A DNA stretch of 40,072 nt, taken from NCBI GenBank assembly GCA_947630955.1, contig CANRJK010000003.1:1-40072 (forward strand), written 5' to 3'. The DNA comes from an uncultured Bacilli bacterium. GTDB taxonomy: Bacteria; Bacillota_I; Bacilli_A; RF39; UBA660. This document shows, in pieces, positions 14,717 to 40,072 of this stretch (positions are counted from its first letter, which is position 1; each line of letters starts with the position of its first letter). Both the position numbers and the translations under genes were made by a program. The notes below the pieces were generated by a model that saw nothing but the letters and a program-made list of their open reading frames with translations, did not search any database and was not told where the DNA came from.

Positions 14717-17314
14717 ATGGATTTAAAAAAGGAAAAATTAAAAAAGACATTTAACCATACACTCCTAGTTTATTTACTTGTCATTGGACTAGGGCTTGTT
14801 ATTACTCTAGTTTTTTGTTATTTAACGAAAAATGATGTTATTTATCTATATGATGATAATATTAGTGTTAATTTAAATTCAACTTATAAAATTAATGTTA
14901 TTACTAATTATAAAGATAGTGACCTTTCTTGGTCAGTTGAAAATAATAAGATTGCGACCATTGATAAACATGGTAAGATATCAACCCATAAATTAGGTGA
15001 AACAAATATTATTGTTAAATCAAAATATGGATTGTTTAAAAAAATTATAAAGTTACGAGTATCACAATTTAATGTTTATTCAATTGTTTTTGATGAAGAT
15101 AATATTAAACTTGATATTAATGAAGAAAAAATGTTGCTTCCTATTTTAAATAATGATAGTAATGTAAGAAGTAATTTAAGTTTTAAAAGTAGTGATGATG
15201 AAATTGTTAAAGTAGCAAGTAATGGTAAGATAAAAGGTTTAAAAGAAGGATTTGCGACCATCACGGTAACTGATAAATATACTAATTTAGCTACTTCCAT
15301 TAATATTAATGTTAATGTAGATAGCGCTATAACCGTTTTTAAAGAAGAAGCCATTGATCCTTTAGAATTAGAGCAAGAAATGATTGAAAATATTACTTTA
15401 AATACTAATCATTTAGATATGTATGTTGGAAGTACAAGAAAAATTAGTGCGACGATTTATCCGACTAATATAAAAAAGGAGAAAATTCAATATGAAAGTA
15501 GTGATAATTCTATAGCGACTGTTTCCCAAACTGGTATAGTAAAAGCTCATAAAAAAGGTGTTTGTAATATTTTTGTTACATCAGAAGATCGAAGTGTTAG
15601 TGCTTCAGCAATTGTTAAAGTGGCTGGTAGTGAAATTAAAATTAATAATCTTTCATTTAAAGAGAAAAATTTAACTTTAGATATCGGTGAAAATTATGTT
15701 TTAACACCAATTATTACTCCTAGTAATGCTAGTAATAAAAAATTAACTTATACTAGTAGTAATAAAGAGGTAGCTACTGTTAGTGAAGATGGTCAGATTA
15801 AAGCTCAAAAAGCAGGGACGACGACCATTGTTGTTATTAGTCAAAATGAACGTCAAACAGCTTCGGTTAATGTTAAAGTAACTGATAAAATGATTTCAGA
15901 TAGTAATTTAGATAAATTAGAATTAACTAATTTTAAAAATTCGATGGTCGTTGGACAGACTAATAAGATTAATGTTAAAGCGTTAAACAAAGAAAATAAT
16001 CAAATTAAAGTTAATTTAACGACATCTAGTCGTGATGTTATATCGGTAGATCAAACAGGTAATATTATTGCTAATGCTCCAGGTATTGCTTCTATTCAGG
16101 TTTCAACGATTGATGGAAAATATGTAGAAAAGAAAATAATTACAGTTTTACCAGAGAAAATTGGCGCTGAATTAGTTTATGTTAATAAAAATAGTTTGCA
16201 GTTAGTAAAGGGAGCAGAAGACACTTTAATTGCGACAGTTATTCCTTTTAATGCCGAAGATAAAACATTAATATGGAAAAGTAGTAATCCAAAGATTGTT
16301 AGTGTTTCTGATGGTAAAGTAAAAGGTGTTGGTATTGGAACCGCTCAAATAACAGTACAAGTTGCCAAAACAGGTGTATCACGGACTATTAAAGTCGCGG
16401 TTGTAGATTTAGAAAAGTTAATCGATGTTCGAAGACAAAGTTTAAAACCATATTATCAAAATTTAGTTGTTTATGATGAAGGTACGAAAGTAAAAAGAGC
16501 TATGCAAAATTTTGCAATTGCTAGAATTGGTCAAAAAAATGAAACCGTTTATTTGTCATTTCCAAGTCAATCAACTGTACCGAAAAAGACAAAATTAACT
16601 AAAGATTTAAAAAATAGTTTGACTAGAACGGTTATTGCAAGAATACCTAAAACAGAAATAAAAAGTCCATCTTCATCAAAGCGCACTTACATGTATCTAA
16701 ATAATAGTGGTCACGGCCAAGCTTTAGACTTAGATTATAATACTAATTATCTTTGGAGTAATGGTGGTGGATATACTTTTAAAGATAGTAAGGGAACAAC
16801 TTGGGGTAGTAATCATTATCTTGTAAGAACAAAGATTATTAAAAATAAAAGTACTTCTAAGTATAAAGCTACTAATAAAATAGTCATTAAAAATAATGGA
16901 GTTAGTTATAGTAATTGTGAAGTAGCTTTTGATTGGGATCAAAATTTAGCAGCCGTAAGGTCAGGACGAAATGTTTTCATATATAAAGCAACAGATTTTC
17001 GTAAGGGTAAATTAACTTTATTATATAATTTTGTCTTATCAAATAAATTAATAGATGGAAATAATTATCCTCGCCAAGGACATGATTTAGCAAACGGCTA
17101 TTATTATCAATATCGTGGTTATATTGGTTCTAAACTTTATATCGAAGCATATAATTACGTAGGTCAATTACAATATACTTATATTTTTAATCCTAATTTT
17201 AGTGGCAAAGAAGCTGAGGGCCTTAAAATATACCAAAATAAAATATATATTGGTTTTTCTGCTAATTGCCCTAATTGTGCGGGAAAAGTTAATAATATTT
17301 ATTATTTTAAGTAA
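14717..17314 (+). CDS. Membrane-anchored/secreted protein with multiple BIG2 (bacterial Ig-like group 2) repeats and a C-terminal, possibly beta-propeller (helveticin-like) domain
   Basis: N-terminal TM; repeated 'L.i..g....l.....P......l.w.SSn..ivsV...G.ikg...G.a.Itv' pattern; C-terminal ~270 aa with GHGQALDLDYN and EAEGLKIYQNKIYIGFS. Confidence 0.85.
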   Translation: MDLKKEKLKKTFNHTLLVYLLVIGLGLVITLVFCYLTKNDVIYLYDDNISVNLNSTYKINVITNYKDSDLSWSVENNKIATIDKHGKISTHKLGETNIIVKSKYGLFKKIIKLRVSQFNVYSIVFDEDNIKLDINEEKMLLPILNNDSNVRSNLSFKSSDDEIVKVASNGKIKGLKEGFATITVTDKYTNLATSININVNVDSAITVFKEEAIDPLELEQEMIENITLNTNHLDMYVGSTRKISATIYPTNIKKEKIQYESSDNSIATVSQTGIVKAHKKGVCNIFVTSEDRSVSASAIVKVAGSEIKINNLSFKEKNLTLDIGENYVLTPIITPSNASNKKLTYTSSNKEVATVSEDGQIKAQKAGTTTIVVISQNERQTASVNVKVTDKMISDSNLDKLELTNFKNSMVVGQTNKINVKALNKENNQIKVNLTTSSRDVISVDQTGNIIANAPGIASIQVSTIDGKYVEKKIITVLPEKIGAELVYVNKNSLQLVKGAEDTLIATVIPFNAEDKTLIWKSSNPKIVSVSDGKVKGVGIGTAQITVQVAKTGVSRTIKVAVVDLEKLIDVRRQSLKPYYQNLVVYDEGTKVKRAMQNFAIARIGQKNETVYLSFPSQSTVPKKTKLTKDLKNSLTRTVIARIPKTEIKSPSSSKRTYMYLNNSGHGQALDLDYNTNYLWSNGGGYTFKDSKGTTWGSNHYLVRTKIIKNKSTSKYKATNKIVIKNNGVSYSNCEVAFDWDQNLAAVRSGRNVFIYKATDFRKGKLTLLYNFVLSNKLIDGNNYPRQGHDLANGYYYQYRGYIGSKLYIEAYNYVGQLQYTYIFNPNFSGKEAEGLKIYQNKIYIGFSANCPNCAGKVNNIYYFK

Positions 17315-19464: not shown

Positions 19465-19491
19465 AGAATGGTTAAGTCCATTCTTTTTTTT
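19465..19491 (+). terminator. Rho-independent terminator after tsf
   Basis: AGAATGG-TTAAGT-CCATTCT-T7. Confidence 0.9.
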
Positions 19492-19606: not shown

Positions 19607-19636
19607 TTGCAAAAACAATAGGTTTTATTATATAAT
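19607..19636 (+). promoter_or_regulatory. Putative promoter of the secreted-protein array; long ~150-nt 5' UTR follows
   Basis: TTGCAA-N18-TATAAT; a second candidate extended -10 (TGGTATGAT) ends at 19657. Confidence 0.45.
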
Positions 19637-19791: not shown

Positions 19792-20415
19792 TTGCGAAAA
19801 CGAAGTATGTTATTTGGTATGATTGGTGTTTTATGTTCATTAGTTTTAGTTATGGGTGTTGTTTATGCAACGCTTAATACCGTTTTAAATATAAATTTCG
19901 GTAGCAGTTCGTCTTCAGCTGTTGTACAGAAAGGTTCAACTTGGGATATCAGTTTTCTTACAGGAGCCGATAATTTGACGATTACTAAGACTGGTGGGAA
20001 TGAGTCAACAACTGATGTTTACTGTAATGATGGCCCAAATATGAGTCAACCAACTATTACAGGAACAGAGATTAGTGGAATAAATATTCAACTAACAAAA
20101 AAAGGTGATCAATGCTCTTACGCTTTTAAAGTAAAGAACAATGGTACTTTGAAAGCTAAGTTAAATGCTATTTCATTAACTAAACCTAATACAGCTTGTA
20201 CTACACCTAGTGTTAGTAGTATGGTATGTGGTAACATAACATATTCATTAAAATATGACAGTGCTTCTGGAACAGCACTTACAGCATCTGATACATTAGA
20301 TAATGGTATTACGAAAACAATCGTTTTAACAGCTGCATATACTGGGAGTGCAACTGTTAGTAGTGATATTGCTTATAATGGATTTGGTGCTACTTTAAAT
20401 TATATTCAAAATTAA
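19792..20415 (+). CDS. Secreted surface protein, TasA/camelysin-like leader, paralog 1 (divergent)
   Basis: Leader ...LVLVMGVVYATLNTVLNINFGSSSSSAVVQKGSTWDISF; TTG start after GGTGGTGA; shared motif GDQCSYAFKVKNNGTLKAKLNAISLTKP. Confidence 0.8.
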   Translation: MRKRSMLFGMIGVLCSLVLVMGVVYATLNTVLNINFGSSSSSAVVQKGSTWDISFLTGADNLTITKTGGNESTTDVYCNDGPNMSQPTITGTEISGINIQLTKKGDQCSYAFKVKNNGTLKAKLNAISLTKPNTACTTPSVSSMVCGNITYSLKYDSASGTALTASDTLDNGITKTIVLTAAYTGSATVSSDIAYNGFGATLNYIQN

Positions 20416-20433
20416 AAGGAAGGAAATGATAAA

Positions 20434-21027
20434 ATGAAAAATAAGAAAACTTTAACTTTAGTAGTAGTAGCTTTAGTAGCTGTAGTTGTTGGATTAACAA
20501 TTGTTTATGCAACATTAAGCACTAATTTATCAATTACATTTGGTTCAAGTGCTGACGATGCAATTACACAAAAAAGCGCTACATGGGATGTAAAATTTGA
20601 TGCAACACAATCAACTGTAACAGGAACAGCAGCTGGTTATAGTGGAGTAAAATGTGGAGACGCTACAGTAACTGATTTAGGTGTTACAATTGGAAAAACT
20701 GAATTTTATACACAAGGAGATTCTTGTACATGGAGTAATATAACTATTAAAAATGGTGGTACATTAAATGCTAAATTAAATAGTTTTACATGGACACAAC
20801 CAACAGGAGGAGAATGCTCAGGTAGTACAAATGGTACTTATGTATGTGGACCTATTACTTACAAAATCTTAGATGCTTCAACAAGTTCTGAATTAGCAGT
20901 TAATAAAACACTTGATAACCAAAAAGATATAAAAGTTAATGTTAAAGCTGAATTAACTCAAGCAAACAGTGGTTCAGATATATCACAATATGGTGGTAAA
21001 GTGCAACTTAACTGGATACAAAATTAA
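20434..21027 (+). CDS. Secreted surface protein, TasA/camelysin-like leader, paralog 2
   Basis: GLTIVYATLSTNLSITFGSSADDAITQKSATWDVKF...GDSCTW...KLNSFTWTQP...VCGPITY...GGKVQLNWIQN. Confidence 0.85.
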   Translation: MKNKKTLTLVVVALVAVVVGLTIVYATLSTNLSITFGSSADDAITQKSATWDVKFDATQSTVTGTAAGYSGVKCGDATVTDLGVTIGKTEFYTQGDSCTWSNITIKNGGTLNAKLNSFTWTQPTGGECSGSTNGTYVCGPITYKILDASTSSELAVNKTLDNQKDIKVNVKAELTQANSGSDISQYGGKVQLNWIQN

Positions 21028-21054
21028 TTTTTGAAACTTTAAGGAGAACTTAAA

Positions 21055-21645
21055 ATGAATAATAGAAAAAAATTAACAACTATTTTATCAGTGTTAATTG
21101 TTGCTGTTTTTTGCTTAACGGTTGTTTTTGCAGCATTAGGACAAAATTTAATTTCTACTTTCGGTAGTGGATCATCTGCAGCTATTGTTCAAAAAGGAGC
21201 AAGCTGGAATGTAGGTTTTGAAACAGCTAGTTCTGTAACTGCGACAAAGACAGGATATAGTGGCGTTACTTGTGGTAACGCTACTGTATCAGCTACCGCT
21301 GTAACTATTCCAAGTGTCGCTTTATATACACCAGGTGATTCATGTACTTGGAACGTAACAATAAAAAATACAGGTGGTTTAAAAGCAAAATTAAAAAGCT
21401 TTACATGGACGCAACCAACTGGTGCGACATGTACAAGTAGTAGTACTGGAACTTATGTATGTGGTAATGTTACTTATTCTGTTTTAAAAGGTGATGCTGT
21501 TCTTGCTGTTGGTGAACAACTTCCGGCTTCAACGGGTAGTGTTGCTGTTAAAATAAAAGTAGAAATACCTTCAAATAAGTCAATCAGTTCAAGTGATGTG
21601 ACACATTATAATGGTAAAGTGCAACTAAATTGGGAACAAGATTAG
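21055..21645 (+). CDS. Secreted surface protein, TasA/camelysin-like leader, paralog 3
   Basis: VVFAALGQNLISTFGSGSSAAIVQKGASWNVGF...GDSCTWNVTIKN...SFTWTQP...GKVQLNWEQD. Confidence 0.85.
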   Translation: MNNRKKLTTILSVLIVAVFCLTVVFAALGQNLISTFGSGSSAAIVQKGASWNVGFETASSVTATKTGYSGVTCGNATVSATAVTIPSVALYTPGDSCTWNVTIKNTGGLKAKLKSFTWTQPTGATCTSSSTGTYVCGNVTYSVLKGDAVLAVGEQLPASTGSVAVKIKVEIPSNKSISSSDVTHYNGKVQLNWEQD

Positions 21646-21667
21646 TAAAAATATAAGGAGGACTTGT

Positions 21668-22255
21668 ATGAAAAACCAAAAAAATTTAACAATTGCTTTA
21701 ACAGTGTTGATTGCTGTTGTTGGTTTAACAATCGTTTATGCAGCTTTGAGCCAAAACTTATCAATTACTTTTGGTAGCAGTGCATCTTCAGCTGTTGTAC
21801 AGAAAGGCTCAACTTGGGATATTGGGTTTGATACAGAAACTGCAACAGTAAATGGAACAAAGACTGGATATAGTTTAGCTACTTGTGGTACTGCAAGTGT
21901 TACTAAAGAGGGTGTTACAATATCTTCAGCAACTTTATACACACCAGGCGATTCATGTACTTGGAATGTTAAAGTTAAAAATAATGGTAATTTAAATGCT
22001 AAATTAAATAGTTTTACATGGACACAACCACAAGGTGGAACTTGTGATGAAAGTAGTAATAATACTTATACTTGTGGTAATATTAAATATAGTGTTTTAA
22101 AAGGTACTGCTGCACTAGCTGCTAATGAAAAATTAACTGGTGGTGCAAGTGTTGATCTTACTATTAAAGTTGAAATTCCAGCAGATAAAAATCTTTCTGG
22201 TACTGATGTATCTCAATATAATGGTAAGGTACAACTTAACTGGGTACAAGATTAA
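21668..22255 (+). CDS. Secreted surface protein, TasA/camelysin-like leader, paralog 4
   Basis: GLTIVYAALSQNLSITFGSSASSAVVQKGSTWDIGF...GDSCTWNVKVKNNGNLNAKLNSFTWTQP...GKVQLNWVQD. Confidence 0.85.
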   Translation: MKNQKNLTIALTVLIAVVGLTIVYAALSQNLSITFGSSASSAVVQKGSTWDIGFDTETATVNGTKTGYSLATCGTASVTKEGVTISSATLYTPGDSCTWNVKVKNNGNLNAKLNSFTWTQPQGGTCDESSNNTYTCGNIKYSVLKGTAALAANEKLTGGASVDLTIKVEIPADKNLSGTDVSQYNGKVQLNWVQD

Positions 22256-22277
22256 TAAAAGTATATAGGAGGATATA

Positions 22278-22874
22278 ATGAAAAACAAAGATAAAAAGAA
22301 TTTAACTATTGTTGCTGTAACATTAGTTGTTGCTGTTTTAGGCTTAACTATTGTTTTCGCAACATTAAGTACAAACTTATCAATTACTTTTGGTTCTGAT
22401 TCTGATAATGCAATCACTCAAAAGGGTGCTCAATGGAAAATTGCTTTCGATACAACTAGTCCAACAGTAGATGGTACAAAATCAGGATATAGTGCTGTAA
22501 CTTGTGGTACTGCAAATGTTACTGAAGAAGGAGTTACATTGTCTTCAGTAGCTTTATATACACCAGGTGATTCATGTACTTATAGTGTTAAAGTTAAAAA
22601 CGATGGTGACTTAAACGCTAAATTAAATAGTTTTACATGGACAAAACCAGAAGGTGGTGCATCATGTACTGAAAGTACTACTAACACTTATAAATGTGGT
22701 GATATAACTTATAGTGTTTTAAAAGCTGGTTCTGCACTTGAAACTAATGAAAAATTAGCATCTAAAGGTAGTGTTGACCTTACTATTAAGGTTTCTTATG
22801 ATGGTGCTAGTGTTAGTGCAAAAGAAGTAAAACGATATAATGGTAAAGTACAACTTAACTGGGTACAAGATTAG
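22278..22874 (+). CDS. Secreted surface protein, TasA/camelysin-like leader, paralog 5
   Basis: GLTIVFATLSTNLSITFGSDSDNAITQKGAQWKIAF...GDSCTYSVKVKNDGDLNAKLNSFTWTKP...GKVQLNWVQD. Confidence 0.85.
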   Translation: MKNKDKKNLTIVAVTLVVAVLGLTIVFATLSTNLSITFGSDSDNAITQKGAQWKIAFDTTSPTVDGTKSGYSAVTCGTANVTEEGVTLSSVALYTPGDSCTYSVKVKNDGDLNAKLNSFTWTKPEGGASCTESTTNTYKCGDITYSVLKAGSALETNEKLASKGSVDLTIKVSYDGASVSAKEVKRYNGKVQLNWVQD

Positions 22875-22919
22875 TTTGAATTATTTATTATTTAATAGGA
22901 ATGAAAAAAGGGTGAAGTT

Positions 22920-24065
22920 ATGAAAAAAGAGTCACAACGTATTTTATTAGTAGAAATTTTGCTTATTTTGGTTTCTTTTGTTCAATTTTTCATCATAAGA
23001 AGATTTTCTCTTTGGATTTATTTAATTCCTATTTTAGCTATTGCAATTTTTAGTTATTTCTTTATTGGCTTGCCAAAACGAGCTGAAAGAGGGTCAAAAG
23101 ATGTTTTGTTAGTACTAATAATTGGATGTATTAGTTACTATCTTCTCATTTATTTTATTGGATTTTTTTCTGGCTTTTTGATTACTGGTTACGGACATAC
23201 CCCTTTAACACTTTTTCAGAATATTTTTCCACACTTGGTATTTATTATACTTATTGAGTATATTAGATCGATGGTGGTTAAGAAAGGAAAGTTTGATAAA
23301 AAGATTATAATTTTATCAGTATTTGCTTTCTTCTGTGTTGATGTGGCCCTTAAATTTTCTCTATTGCAGGTTGATTCTAGAGAAGCGGTATTAAAGGTTA
23401 TTCTTAATGCCATAATTCCAACTTTGATAAAAACAGCTTTACTTACTTATATAACATATACTACTGAAGCTAAAAATAGTATTGTTTATCACTGTTTGAT
23501 GGAGCTTCCCGTTTATATTATCCCTATATTCCCAGATTTAGGTGATTATATTTCCAATATTTTCTTAATCGTACAGCCAATGCTGATGATAGTATTTATC
23601 TATAAGATTTTATATGATAAAAGAGAAAAAATTGAAAATAGTAGGCGGACGGTTAAATTCAATAAATATCAAAGAATTTTACAAGCATTTTTAGTTTTAT
23701 TACTTGTCGTAGTTGTTGTCTTAGTAAGTGGAGTTGGACGTTATGTTGCTTTAGCGATTGGTTCAGAATCGATGACAGGTACAATCGATAAAGGTGATGT
23801 TATTGTTATCGATAAAAAAGATAAAAATTATAAAGTAGGAGCAATAATTGCTTTTGAATATGATGGTCGTGTCTTAGTACATAGAATTATGGAAATAAAC
23901 GAAACTGAAAAAGAAGTTAGTTATCAGACTAAAGGTGATTACAACAAAGATAAAGATGCATGGGTAGTTAAACCAGAGACAATTATTGGCGTAGTAAAGT
24001 TTAGATTATGGGGGATTGGTTGGCCAACAGTCAAATTAAGTGAATGGATGGAAGGTGATCGATAA
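22920..24065 (+). CDS. ER-type (S26B, SipW-like) type I signal peptidase with N-terminal polytopic membrane region
   Basis: Catalytic Ser box GSESMTGTIDKGDVIVID; His-type box VLVHRIMEI instead of the Lys dyad; QTKGDYNKDKDAWVVKPETIIGVV; ~240 aa hydrophobic N-terminus. Confidence 0.88.
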   Translation: MKKESQRILLVEILLILVSFVQFFIIRRFSLWIYLIPILAIAIFSYFFIGLPKRAERGSKDVLLVLIIGCISYYLLIYFIGFFSGFLITGYGHTPLTLFQNIFPHLVFIILIEYIRSMVVKKGKFDKKIIILSVFAFFCVDVALKFSLLQVDSREAVLKVILNAIIPTLIKTALLTYITYTTEAKNSIVYHCLMELPVYIIPIFPDLGDYISNIFLIVQPMLMIVFIYKILYDKREKIENSRRTVKFNKYQRILQAFLVLLLVVVVVLVSGVGRYVALAIGSESMTGTIDKGDVIVIDKKDKNYKVGAIIAFEYDGRVLVHRIMEINETEKEVSYQTKGDYNKDKDAWVVKPETIIGVVKFRLWGIGWPTVKLSEWMEGDR

Positions 24066-24066
24066 A

Positions 24067-25467
24067 ATGAATGAAGATGGAAAAAAAGGTAATTTAGATT
24101 CAGATAAAATCTCTTCTATTAGTGATATTATAGATTTTGATTTAGATGATGAATCTTTAGATGATGAATTGATAAGCAAAGATTCAATTACAAAACCACT
24201 TACTTCCACTGATGATACTTTTAATAAAGAAAAGTTGGGTTCTACTCTTAAAAGGGAAGAATCAGCTAATCCTAAAAGTGTTAGCAAATCTCACTCGCCA
24301 ATAGATCAAAGTAGTTCAGTAAAAAACACCAGTAAAAGTAGTACACAAGGTTCTATTTTAGATGCTGTTAAAGAAGAACAAAAGAAGAATCAGTCACCTG
24401 ATGAAAATACTCATAAGGAACCTACTTATTCTAATAAAAAATCACTTATTAGAGCTCATATAAGTTTTGGAACAAGATTATTCTTTATGATGCTTGGTAT
24501 TATTATCTTCATCGTAGTAGCTGGTTTATCTATTTATGAGGCTTTTCGCTATGACCATAGTGAAACAGTTATCTATAATGAATCAGCAAATATTAATTAT
24601 CAAGTATGTTTAGGTAAAAATGATTTCTATGATGTTTCTTGTCTAGAAGAAGGTATGGAATATATTTCAATGATTACTAATCGTATTCCTATTGAATTCC
24701 AATACACTTCAAGTTATAGCAAGGAAATGGAATATAACTATGAATATTATGTTTCTGGTAAGTTAAAGATTTATGATCGTGATGATCCATCTAAAATTTT
24801 GTATAAAAGAACTGATGTTTTAGTTGATAATAAGCCTTTAAAAGGTAAAGGAAGTGCGATTGATTTATCAACTAAAGTAGATTTAGATTATAAGAAATAT
24901 AATGATTATGTTAATACTTATAAGAGTAAATATTTACTTAGTTCTGATGGTGTTATCGAAGTTTCTCTATATTTGAAAGGTGAAAATGAAACTAAGAGTG
25001 TAGCTACCATTTCTATACCATTATCTCAACAAACTTATGGTATAACAAAAGATACCGTAAATTCTGACGATCAAATGATGCTTGTTCGTGTTGGAAAATG
25101 GAATGAGACAAACTATGTTTGTATGGGAATTGGAATTCTTAGTCTATTGATATGTATTTTGATTTTTGTTCAAATGTTTGGTTTAATTAACAAAGGATCA
25201 GGAAGAAAAAGTAAATATCTTCAAACCTTAAATAAAATTTTAAGAGAATATGACCGTGTTATTGTTGTAGCTAAGACACCAGTTGAAGCTGATGACAGTA
25301 AAACAGTAATCCGCGTTGATTCTTTTGAAGAATTATTGGATGCTAGAGATAGTTTAGAAAAACCAATTATTTATTCAAAAATAAATGATGTTAAATCTGA
25401 ATTTACAGTAGAAGATAATGACAGAATATTTAAATATGTCATGAAAGAAGCAGATTATATAAATTAA
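24067..25467 (+). CDS. Two-TM membrane protein with extracytoplasmic domain, possibly DUF5305-like
   Basis: Acidic/Ser-rich N-terminus, TM TRLFFMMLGIIIFIVVAGLSIYEAF, extracellular region, TM ICMGIGILSLLICILIFVQMF, C-term VDSFEELLDARDSLEKPIIYS; ATG at 24067 preferred over 24040. Confidence 0.7.
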   Translation: MNEDGKKGNLDSDKISSISDIIDFDLDDESLDDELISKDSITKPLTSTDDTFNKEKLGSTLKREESANPKSVSKSHSPIDQSSSVKNTSKSSTQGSILDAVKEEQKKNQSPDENTHKEPTYSNKKSLIRAHISFGTRLFFMMLGIIIFIVVAGLSIYEAFRYDHSETVIYNESANINYQVCLGKNDFYDVSCLEEGMEYISMITNRIPIEFQYTSSYSKEMEYNYEYYVSGKLKIYDRDDPSKILYKRTDVLVDNKPLKGKGSAIDLSTKVDLDYKKYNDYVNTYKSKYLLSSDGVIEVSLYLKGENETKSVATISIPLSQQTYGITKDTVNSDDQMMLVRVGKWNETNYVCMGIGILSLLICILIFVQMFGLINKGSGRKSKYLQTLNKILREYDRVIVVAKTPVEADDSKTVIRVDSFEELLDARDSLEKPIIYSKINDVKSEFTVEDNDRIFKYVMKEADYIN

Positions 25468-25480
25468 TAATTGCAAAAAG

Positions 25481-25509
25481 AAAAATCCTTTTAAAGGGAT
25501 TTTTTTTTT
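25481..25509. terminator. Bidirectional terminator
   Basis: AAAAATCC / GGATTTTT with T run; lies between convergent genes. Confidence 0.8.
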
Positions 25510-26098
25510 ACTTTTTTTCTTTAATTAATATATCTTTTAAAACATTAAATGATAAAAGATAGGGTTCTAATTGCTTTATTACTTTATCATCTTTAGGTAT
25601 TTCGATAAGGTAGGTAATAACACTTTCATATTTTTTATTTTTAATTTTATAATCTTTTAATAAGTAATCTATTTTTTTTAAATTATCGTAGGTAAATTTA
25701 ATTTCGATTTCTTTTCCATCAATAAGATAGATAATATCTGCTTTGTCTAAACACTGCATTACACTGTCAAAGTAGGCTCTAACAAGTCCATTAGCGCCTA
25801 ATTTTATCCCACCGAAGTATCTTGTAACAATCGCTAAGACATGGTCTAATTCATTAATTTCAAGCGCTTTTAAGATAGGAAAGCCTGCTGTTTTGCTTGG
25901 TTCTTTATCATCACTAGCTTTTTTATATTCATCATAGATATAAGCATAACAGTTATGAGTAGCGTCCTTATAATCATTTTTAGTTTTATCAATGATTATT
26001 TTTATTTCGTCTATACTATTAATAGGATATAGGTGACAAATAAATTTAGAATTTTTTATTATCAATTCACTTGTCACTATTTTGTCTATTGATTTCAT
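25508..26098 (-). CDS. yigZ: YigZ/IMPACT (UPF0029) family protein
   Basis: SKFICHLYPI; THNCYAYIY; DDKEPSKTAGFPILKAL; VTRYFGGIKLGANGLVRAY. Confidence 0.93.
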   Translation of the reverse strand: MKSIDKIVTSELIIKNSKFICHLYPINSIDEIKIIIDKTKNDYKDATHNCYAYIYDEYKKASDDKEPSKTAGFPILKALEINELDHVLAIVTRYFGGIKLGANGLVRAYFDSVMQCLDKADIIYLIDGKEIEIKFTYDNLKKIDYLLKDYKIKNKKYESVITYLIEIPKDDKVIKQLEPYLLSFNVLKDILIKEKK

Positions 26099-39644: not shown

Positions 39645-39828
39645 GTCCTTAAGTTATTTACTTAAGTTCTCATAATTCTAATAAAATAATATCATTTTTT
39701 ATATGAATTGTAAAGCTTTTTTGTTTTCATAAAAGCAATATAAAAAGACTATTTTTATTTTCTATTATTTCTTATATACCCTTTTAATTTCAACAAAGTA
39801 GTTGTCCTTAAGTAAATAACTTAAGGAC
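39645..39828. repeat. Candidate invertible element: 22-bp perfect inverted repeats flanking 140 bp
   Basis: Left arm 39645-39666 GTCCTTAAGTTATTTACTTAAG; right arm 39807-39828 is its exact reverse complement. Confidence 0.8.
39686..39714 (-). promoter_or_regulatory. Promoter inside the candidate invertible element, reading leftward
   Basis: On the - strand: TTTACA-N17-TATTAT. Confidence 0.6.
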
Positions 39829-39844
39829 ACATTTGGAGGGCAAT

Positions 39845-40072
39845 ATGAAACGAGTAAAAAATAAAAATATGATGGTGTTAATAGTAATTGTTATAGTAAC
39901 GTTAACAAGTAGTATAGGGTATAGCGCTTTACAGTCAAATTTAAAAGTAACAGCTGATTTAAATGTCTTAAAAGACTATATACCAGATGGGACACTATAT
40001 GATATGATGCATCATATATCAGAAATGGATAATGCAAGTAGTAAATATGTAAGTAATCCTAGTGGAGTAGAT
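39845..40072 (+). CDS. Secreted surface protein with TasA/camelysin-like leader, truncated by window end
   Basis: GGAGGG RBS at 39835; open frame to the window end: MKRVKNKNMMVLIVIVIVTLTSSIGYSALQSNLKVTADLNVLKDYIPDGTLYDMMHHISEMDNASSKYVSNPSGVD; absent from the supplied ORF track because it runs off the edge. Confidence 0.85.
   Translation, partial: MKRVKNKNMMVLIVIVIVTLTSSIGYSALQSNLKVTADLNVLKDYIPDGTLYDMMHHISEMDNASSKYVSNPSGVD

Follow-up and report, generated by a model that had tools for sequence, protein, structure and literature searches.

A putative multi-subunit surface-fibre operon with its own signal peptidase in an uncultured Bacilli bacterium

Introduction

What does a bacterium build from five secreted paralogs that are encoded next to a signal peptidase and a membrane protein? 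The question is raised by a locus on contig CANRJK010000003.1 of assembly GCA_947630955.1, a metagenome-assembled genome (MAG) of an uncultured Bacilli bacterium of the UBA660 lineage, 88% complete and divided into 83 contigs. The window analysed here is the whole stretch of 40,072 nucleotides (nt) from position 1 of this contig. An initial annotation had described the locus as a self-contained, surface-fibre-like unit and as an expanded analogue of the Bacillus tapA-sipW-tasA operon. It is best read as a new variant of the TasA and archaeal-bundling-pilus operons, encoding a donor-strand fibre of several subunits together with the peptidase that processes them.

Organization of the operon

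The genes of five secreted paralogs (S1 to S5), of a peptidase (PEP) and of a DUF5305 protein follow one another on the + strand, after tsf and its terminator.

19465..19484, +: rho-independent terminator of tsf, upstream boundary (fold z -2.95)
19607..19636, +: TTGCAA-18-TATAAT, promoter-like (consensus match only), within the 330 nt upstream of S1
19792..20415, +: S1, fibre-subunit-like secreted paralog, the most divergent, TTG start, 207 amino acids (aa)
20434..21027, +: S2, secreted paralog, 197 aa, four cysteines
21055..21645, +: S3, secreted paralog, 196 aa, four conserved cysteines
21668..22255, +: S4, secreted paralog, 195 aa, four cysteines
22278..22874, +: S5, secreted paralog, 198 aa, predicted beta-sandwich
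22362..22397, +: S5 residues 29-40 (TLSTNLSITFGS), first mature residues, proposed donor strand
22920..24065, +: PEP, domain with eight transmembrane helices (residues 1-250) fused to an S26B signal peptidase domain
23769..23771, +: PEP catalytic Ser284 (SESM)
23880..23882, +: PEP catalytic His321 (VHRI)
24067..25467, +: DUF5305 membrane protein (PF17231 match, predicted structure)
24559..25089, +: predicted external beta domain of the DUF5305 protein, residues 165-341
about 25475..25510, +: terminator-like hairpin and U-run after the DUF5305 gene, downstream boundary (fold z -4.61)

Reading of the open reading frames (ORFs) bore out the description of five consecutive, co-directional secreted proteins of 195-207 aa with gaps of 18-27 nt and individual ribosome-binding sites: the gaps measure 18, 27, 22 and 22 nt and a purine-rich ribosome-binding site is found at each. 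The unit is indeed self-contained, bounded by the tsf terminator and the hairpin after the DUF5305 gene. No internal terminator was found within the S1-S5 array and no hairpin in the 45-nt gap between S5 and PEP, in agreement with the earlier observation that no obvious terminator separates the array from the peptidase. As for the promoter-like site before S1, equally many such sites are expected by chance. For the DUF5305 gene, ATG 24067 (466 aa), which comes 1 nt after the PEP stop, is a more likely start than GTG 24040. Chance cannot account for five neighbouring homologous ORFs that share 31-65% identity.

The five subunits

Each paralog is composed of a short basic N-terminus, a single hydrophobic helix, a [YF]A site and a beta-rich remainder. 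The leaders, annotated at first as near-identical, share only 27-65% pairwise identity, less than the first 12 mature residues (42-100%). Past these two parts, pairwise identity is 31-64%, S2-S5 being 50-64% alike and S1 about one third; S1 is the outlier, with 33-36% overall identity to the other paralogs. The most conserved stretches are the first 12 mature residues and a KNxGxLNAKLNSFTW block. In the mature N-terminal segment (residues 29-40), S2 and S5 differ at five synonymous sites and at no nonsynonymous one, a pattern that speaks for selection and against recent copying.

The leader ends in a typical [YF][AS] cleavage site in 60/60 homologs. In the same set, positions 30, 34 and 36 are hydrophobic in 95-100% of the sequences and their neighbours mostly polar, these three being the sole consistently hydrophobic positions among the first 12 mature residues. 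Such a pattern is compatible with a donor strand; that of TasA spans residues 28-38, and its key contacts include F29 and I32 (PMC9674648). All five paralogs conserve four cysteines. Some more distant subunits (L072) retain only the last two, at aligned positions, which suggests a pairing as two disulfides, 1-2 and 3-4.

An AlphaFold 2 model of S5 built with 60 homologs reached a mean predicted local distance difference test (pLDDT) of 90.7. In a Foldseek comparison with the PDB, donor-strand pilin domains (PapG, FimA, FimI) were among the top matches of this model, together with the TasA fibre 8aur, the Sulfolobus thread 7pnb and the Natrinema Tafi pilus 9p0a; the TasA fibre (8aur_A) ranked 13, with an E-value of 0.024 and a TM-score of 0.30. 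We regard this pilin-type fold match as suggestive. The best matches in a PDB profile search with the subunit were to AbpX (E 0.0074 and 0.056). Aligned to camelysin/TasA with hhalign, the subunit profile scored 92.8% (E 3.9e-7, 83 columns), the match spanning the leader and the shared KPGD...N-x-G block only. By this profile-profile comparison, the subunits appear distantly homologous to TasA and camelysin.

The peptidase and its membrane partner

The C-terminal ~125 residues of PEP form an S26B signal peptidase (70.6 bits with TIGR02228, cut-off 51.85) whose best PDB relatives are human SEC11A/C, and Ser284 and His321, the latter in place of Lys, are invariant in 43 homologs. The dedicated signal peptidase of the initial annotation is therefore of the ER type as claimed, although it is not a plain one, since about seven or eight predicted transmembrane helices, in ~250 residues, precede the S26B domain. 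PEP remains below the SipW equivalog model NF046067, with 48.9 bits against a cut-off of 190.

No Pfam family matched the N-terminal domain. Its residues E113, R116 and P205 are invariant, which suggests that it is functional. Its resemblance to the CPBP/Rce1 proteases is weak and no more than suggestive (hhalign 41%, E 2.8e-4, against 0.2-0.3 for reversed controls; E113xxR116 lies near EExxFR). The 88%-complete genome has no other clear S26B peptidase besides PEP; its second TIGR02228 match (C13) is weak and LepB-sized. Sortases are present in the genome. None is encoded among the window genes read, and a sortase dependence of the locus was rejected on this ground. In the relative G010, a PEP homolog (L051:6679-7839) has its catalytic Ser replaced by Ala and its His by Asp, and adjoins a shortened DUF5305 gene and two subunits; it is possibly a pseudo-peptidase retained for a role in assembly.

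The membrane protein seen downstream, with two transmembrane segments, was recovered as such and could be assigned to a family. It matches DUF5305 (PF17231) over positions 1-217 of 217 (56.2 bits, gathering cut-off 29, 4e-15), and differs from the family by an additional cytosolic, disordered N-terminus of ~130 aa. This part is predicted to be followed by a transmembrane helix, an immunoglobulin (Ig)-like ectodomain, a second transmembrane helix and a cytosolic alpha/beta domain, with high confidence beyond the disordered first 130 residues. The external domain, with long beta strands and one helix, retrieved generic Ig-like sandwiches with Foldseek. The Sec11-like partner prompted a comparison with the SPC22/23 subunit; a prokaryotic SPC22/23 was rejected for want of homology, SPC22 (PF04573) having no match in the organism's own genome and no SPC22/23 being among the 50 DUF5305 fold matches listed. 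A literature search, which did not cover the primary archaeal-bundling-pilus paper, found no paper mentioning DUF5305.

A widespread module

Is this arrangement peculiar to one genome? A scan of GTDB genomes with the peptidase yielded 80 loci, picked by peptidase similarity and not by their neighbours, mostly in MAGs of Bacilli and Clostridia and also in Peptostreptococcus canis and archaea. Among the loci with a long peptidase (n=66), a DUF5305 gene lies at most 2.6 kilobases away on the same strand in 60, a subunit is recognised in 53 and both are found in 50. Only three of the 13 shorter peptidase ORFs have a DUF5305 neighbour, and these (L079, L105, L113) look like truncated or split long forms; the difference gives a Fisher p of 1e-6, on a crude length split and with loci that are phylogenetically non-independent. 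The subunit profile found members in 13/27 related genomes. Separation of the peptidase from the array in relatives had been named as grounds for refuting the fibre proposal; the peptidase was found to stay beside the subunits. The combination of subunit, multi-transmembrane peptidase and DUF5305 is, as far as these comparisons reach, a widespread module, and the fused peptidase, whose architecture had looked unusual, is its norm and no local oddity.

The number of subunits, also considered unusual, is a different matter: the five genes are real, but 42/66 long-peptidase loci hold a single recognised subunit. Arrays of four or five were found in L059, L061 and L062, all of four-cysteine types. 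Subunit phylogeny places S2-S5 in a clade confined to the window (100/100), with S1 apart, and they are a lineage-specific expansion. The array members of L061 and L062 mostly pair ortholog by ortholog, which argues for differentiated subunits and not interchangeable copies.

Several related loci carry further genes. Directly after DUF5305, the genes at L059:12657, L068:10495 and L047:7162 encode large secreted proteins (Gly_rich_2, fn3) whose leader is similar; these are candidate tip adhesins. The relative G019 (L047, L048, L049) has nine TIGR02228 matches, several fibre-type loci and several camelysin-like proteins, with proteins of 672-802 aa and a similar leader beside two of its loci. 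In some Clostridia (L125, L122, L132), the module adjoins an apparent sensor kinase and response regulator, identified by sequence reading, as well as a 337-346-aa protein with a camelysin-type leader; this neighbourhood suggests that expression of the module is regulated there.

Comparison with known fibre operons

Like tapA-sipW-tasA and sipW-calY, the locus combines secreted TasA-type proteins with an S26B signal peptidase in the same operon, and donor-strand assembly is proposed for both. It also shares with B. cereus sipW-calY the presence of several paralogs, of which B. cereus uses two co-polymerising ones (PMC13082335). Unlike those of the Bacillus operons, its subunits are five diverged four-cysteine paralogs that fail the M73 model, its peptidase has an extra domain of eight transmembrane helices, and DUF5305 stands in place of TapA. 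Conversely, the short-peptidase, Bacillus-type loci (L128, L129, L133, L136) are devoid of DUF5305.

Archaeal bundling pili (AbpA/AbpX) provide the other comparison. Two crenarchaeal loci share subunit-like genes, a multi-transmembrane S26B peptidase and DUF5305 with the window: L113, from a Sulfolobales MAG, has two subunit-like genes, a split PEP and DUF5305, and L127, from a Desulfurococcales MAG, has subunit-like genes and a 430-aa PEP, followed by a DUF5305 match that is weak (19.1 bits, under the cut-off) and truncated where the contig ends. Because AbpX is the top PDB profile match and the same set of genes occurs in L113 and L127, the module appears at least as close to archaeal bundling-pilus-type loci as to tapA-sipW-tasA. 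The subunit sequences themselves barely align with the subunit-like archaeal proteins (hhalign 38%), and L113 and L127 are not equated with the published abp loci.

Proposed mechanism and alternatives

We consider it fairly probable that the operon serves the export, processing and assembly of a thin multi-subunit surface fibre of the TasA/archaeal-bundling-pilus type. Following the domain classes, S1-S5 would be made as precursors with a Sec-type leader, which PEP, the ER-type signal peptidase encoded next to them, would remove by cleavage after [YF]A. Cleavage would leave a conserved N-terminal segment, A/T-L-x-x-x-L-x-I, able to enter the incomplete beta-sandwich of the next subunit as a donor strand, as in TasA and archaeal bundling pili. 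Head-to-tail polymerisation would then give a mixed fibre, in which the different paralogs may form a heteropolymer, as in the TasA-CalY heterofilaments of B. cereus (PMC13082335), or stack in zones. S1, which comes first and diverges most, is a candidate for the tip or the initiator, and the four cysteines probably form two disulfides. The DUF5305 protein, with its external Ig-like domain, would most likely be a neighbour of PEP in the membrane and serve as anchor, chaperone or platform for assembly; it may, as initially proposed, assemble the fibre.

A number of results weigh against such a fibre. None of the five paralogs reaches the family cut-off of Pfam M73 (PF12389) or passes the NCBIfam TasA model, and S1-S5 were accordingly rejected as camelysin family members; weak M73 matches occur in 18/60 subunit homologs, the best at 2e-4. 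All Foldseek matches of S5 have E-values of at least 0.002, none below 0.001, and TM-scores of at most 0.46, low partly because the signal helix was part of the model. The locus has no TapA, VKOR-type disulfide machinery was searched in the 88%-complete genome and not found, 13/66 long-peptidase loci lack a subunit recognised by the profile, and the MAGs in the sample are interrelated. Of the TasA-like analogue put forward by the initial annotation, the distant TasA/camelysin similarity and the pilin-type fold are retained, without the camelysin-model match and without TapA.

The paralogs could instead be secreted, PEP-processed beta-sandwich proteins that do not polymerise and act individually in matrix, binding or adhesion, like DUF11, CARDB or choice-of-anchor proteins. 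That matches of subunit homologs to DUF11, DUF7507 and CARDB-type Ig domains are as frequent as those to M73, and that cellulose-binding modules are also in the Foldseek list of S5, makes this conceivable; we nevertheless hold it for rather improbable given the hydrophobic pattern at the mature N-terminus, the TasA/AbpX similarity, the pilins topping the fold list and the constant tie to the peptidase and DUF5305 pair. Still less credit is given to membrane-tethered or S-layer-like wall-coat proteins, with PEP and DUF5305 as a quality-control or sensing complex and no fibre assembler. The large membrane domain of PEP, with its conserved E113, R116 and P205 and its weak CPBP/Rce1 likeness, and the retention in G010 of a PEP devoid of catalytic Ser and His, would suit such a complex, whereas Ser and His are present in nearly all other PEPs and a cleavage site ends the leaders of all homologs.

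Finally, the array might be a reservoir for antigenic variation, its paralogs recombining or being alternately expressed, and their leader is indeed shared by a large, putatively phase-variable family in the same genome (see below). This we judge very improbable: inverted sites are absent upstream of S1 and PEP, the genes are co-directional with their own ribosome-binding sites and no internal terminator was found, and diverged synonymous sites in the conserved segment argue against recent gene conversion. Phase switching of S1-S5 themselves was rejected, as no sites lie upstream.

A same-leader family with putative invertible promoters

A leader-only profile retrieved S1-S5 and 27 further ORFs from the organism's own genome (one extra match, E 1.2, was ignored), and two more genes, cut by contig ends, were found via their sites (C24, C33). 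The family thus counts ~29 genes besides S1-S5, most of them for DUF6273 proteins of ~660 aa; the figure is approximate because a large same-leader family breaks contigs. Its loci are L196-L215, L231-L233 and the end of the window (39647-40072).

39647..39666, no strand: left site CCTTAAGT-TATTT-ACTTAAG of a putative invertible promoter
39804..39828, no strand: right site GTCCTTAAGT-AAATA-ACTTAAGGAC, with a core reverse-complementary to that of the left site
39845..40072, +: first part of a large surface protein with the same leader, truncated where the contig ends

Full-length members have 653-674 aa, are 60-76% alike and show weak DUF6273 matches and a GVRPV motif. A palindromic right-hand site, GTCCTTAAGT-N5-ACTTAAGGAC, lies 25-38 base pairs (bp) before the start of all same-leader genes except two (C47, C42); the pattern has 27 occurrences in this genome and 0 in 56 related genomes. 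A second, left site is found about 155 bp further upstream. With left sites selected by a distance filter blind to the core, the N5 cores were reverse-complementary in 23/23 scored pairs, for 16 different right cores, against a mean of 1.9 and a maximum of 8 matched cores in 20,000 shuffled pairings. Three further pairs read by eye also match and add one core (26/26 analysable pairs, about 17 cores). Between the sites, a conserved promoter-like TTTACT-17-TATTAT (consensus match) is carried on the strand facing away from the gene, in an identical (OFF) orientation in every assembled copy.

Because the cores of paired sites are reverse complements in every analysable case, the likeliest reading is that the same-leader genes are driven by promoters that invert individually and that the assembly shows all of them OFF. 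A candidate invertase is the tyrosine recombinase (363 aa, PF00589 8.5e-24) encoded at L212:741-1832, directly upstream of the only regular family copy that lacks sites, in C47. The switch is not general, since the large same-leader proteins of relatives (L047, L049, L059, L064, L066, L068) have no paired repeats upstream. As with Mycoplasma penetrans mpl and the invertible promoters of Bacteroides, dispersed surface-protein genes each have a promoter segment between inverted sites, and a tyrosine recombinase in the genome adds to the likeness (PMC2268961). Unlike in these systems, the 5-bp core varies between loci while being matched within each pair; the inversion here is putative.

The family is linked to the operon by the shared leader and the single S26B peptidase only, and that the large proteins ride on the fibre is speculation. 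A tentative, rather doubtful extension would make the operon a hub for processing and assembly shared within one surface system, whose donor-strand fibre of five differentiated subunits also exports, and perhaps carries, one of ~29 large DUF6273 (C-type-lectin-like) proteins with the same leader, each turned on when its own promoter inverts, the module being an ancient fibre-export machine of Bacteria and Archaea. Site cores private to a locus or shared by few would then let promoters flip mostly singly and rarely recombine together.

Elsewhere in the window and apart from the fibre unit, an 865-aa protein with an N-terminal anchor and six Big_2 domains is encoded just upstream of rpsB-tsf (14717-17314).

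Significance

With this locus, DUF5305, a family of unknown function, gains a likely role as partner of a fibre-processing peptidase. Uncultured gut Bacilli and Clostridia would harbour a third, widespread form of the fibre operon known from Bacillus and crenarchaea, and the five diverged subunits described here offer a testable case of heteropolymer assembly that needs neither sortase nor usher. The same-leader family, if confirmed, would give a commensal with a very small genome a large surface repertoire, under a recombination-site design in which the core is matched within a locus and varies between loci.

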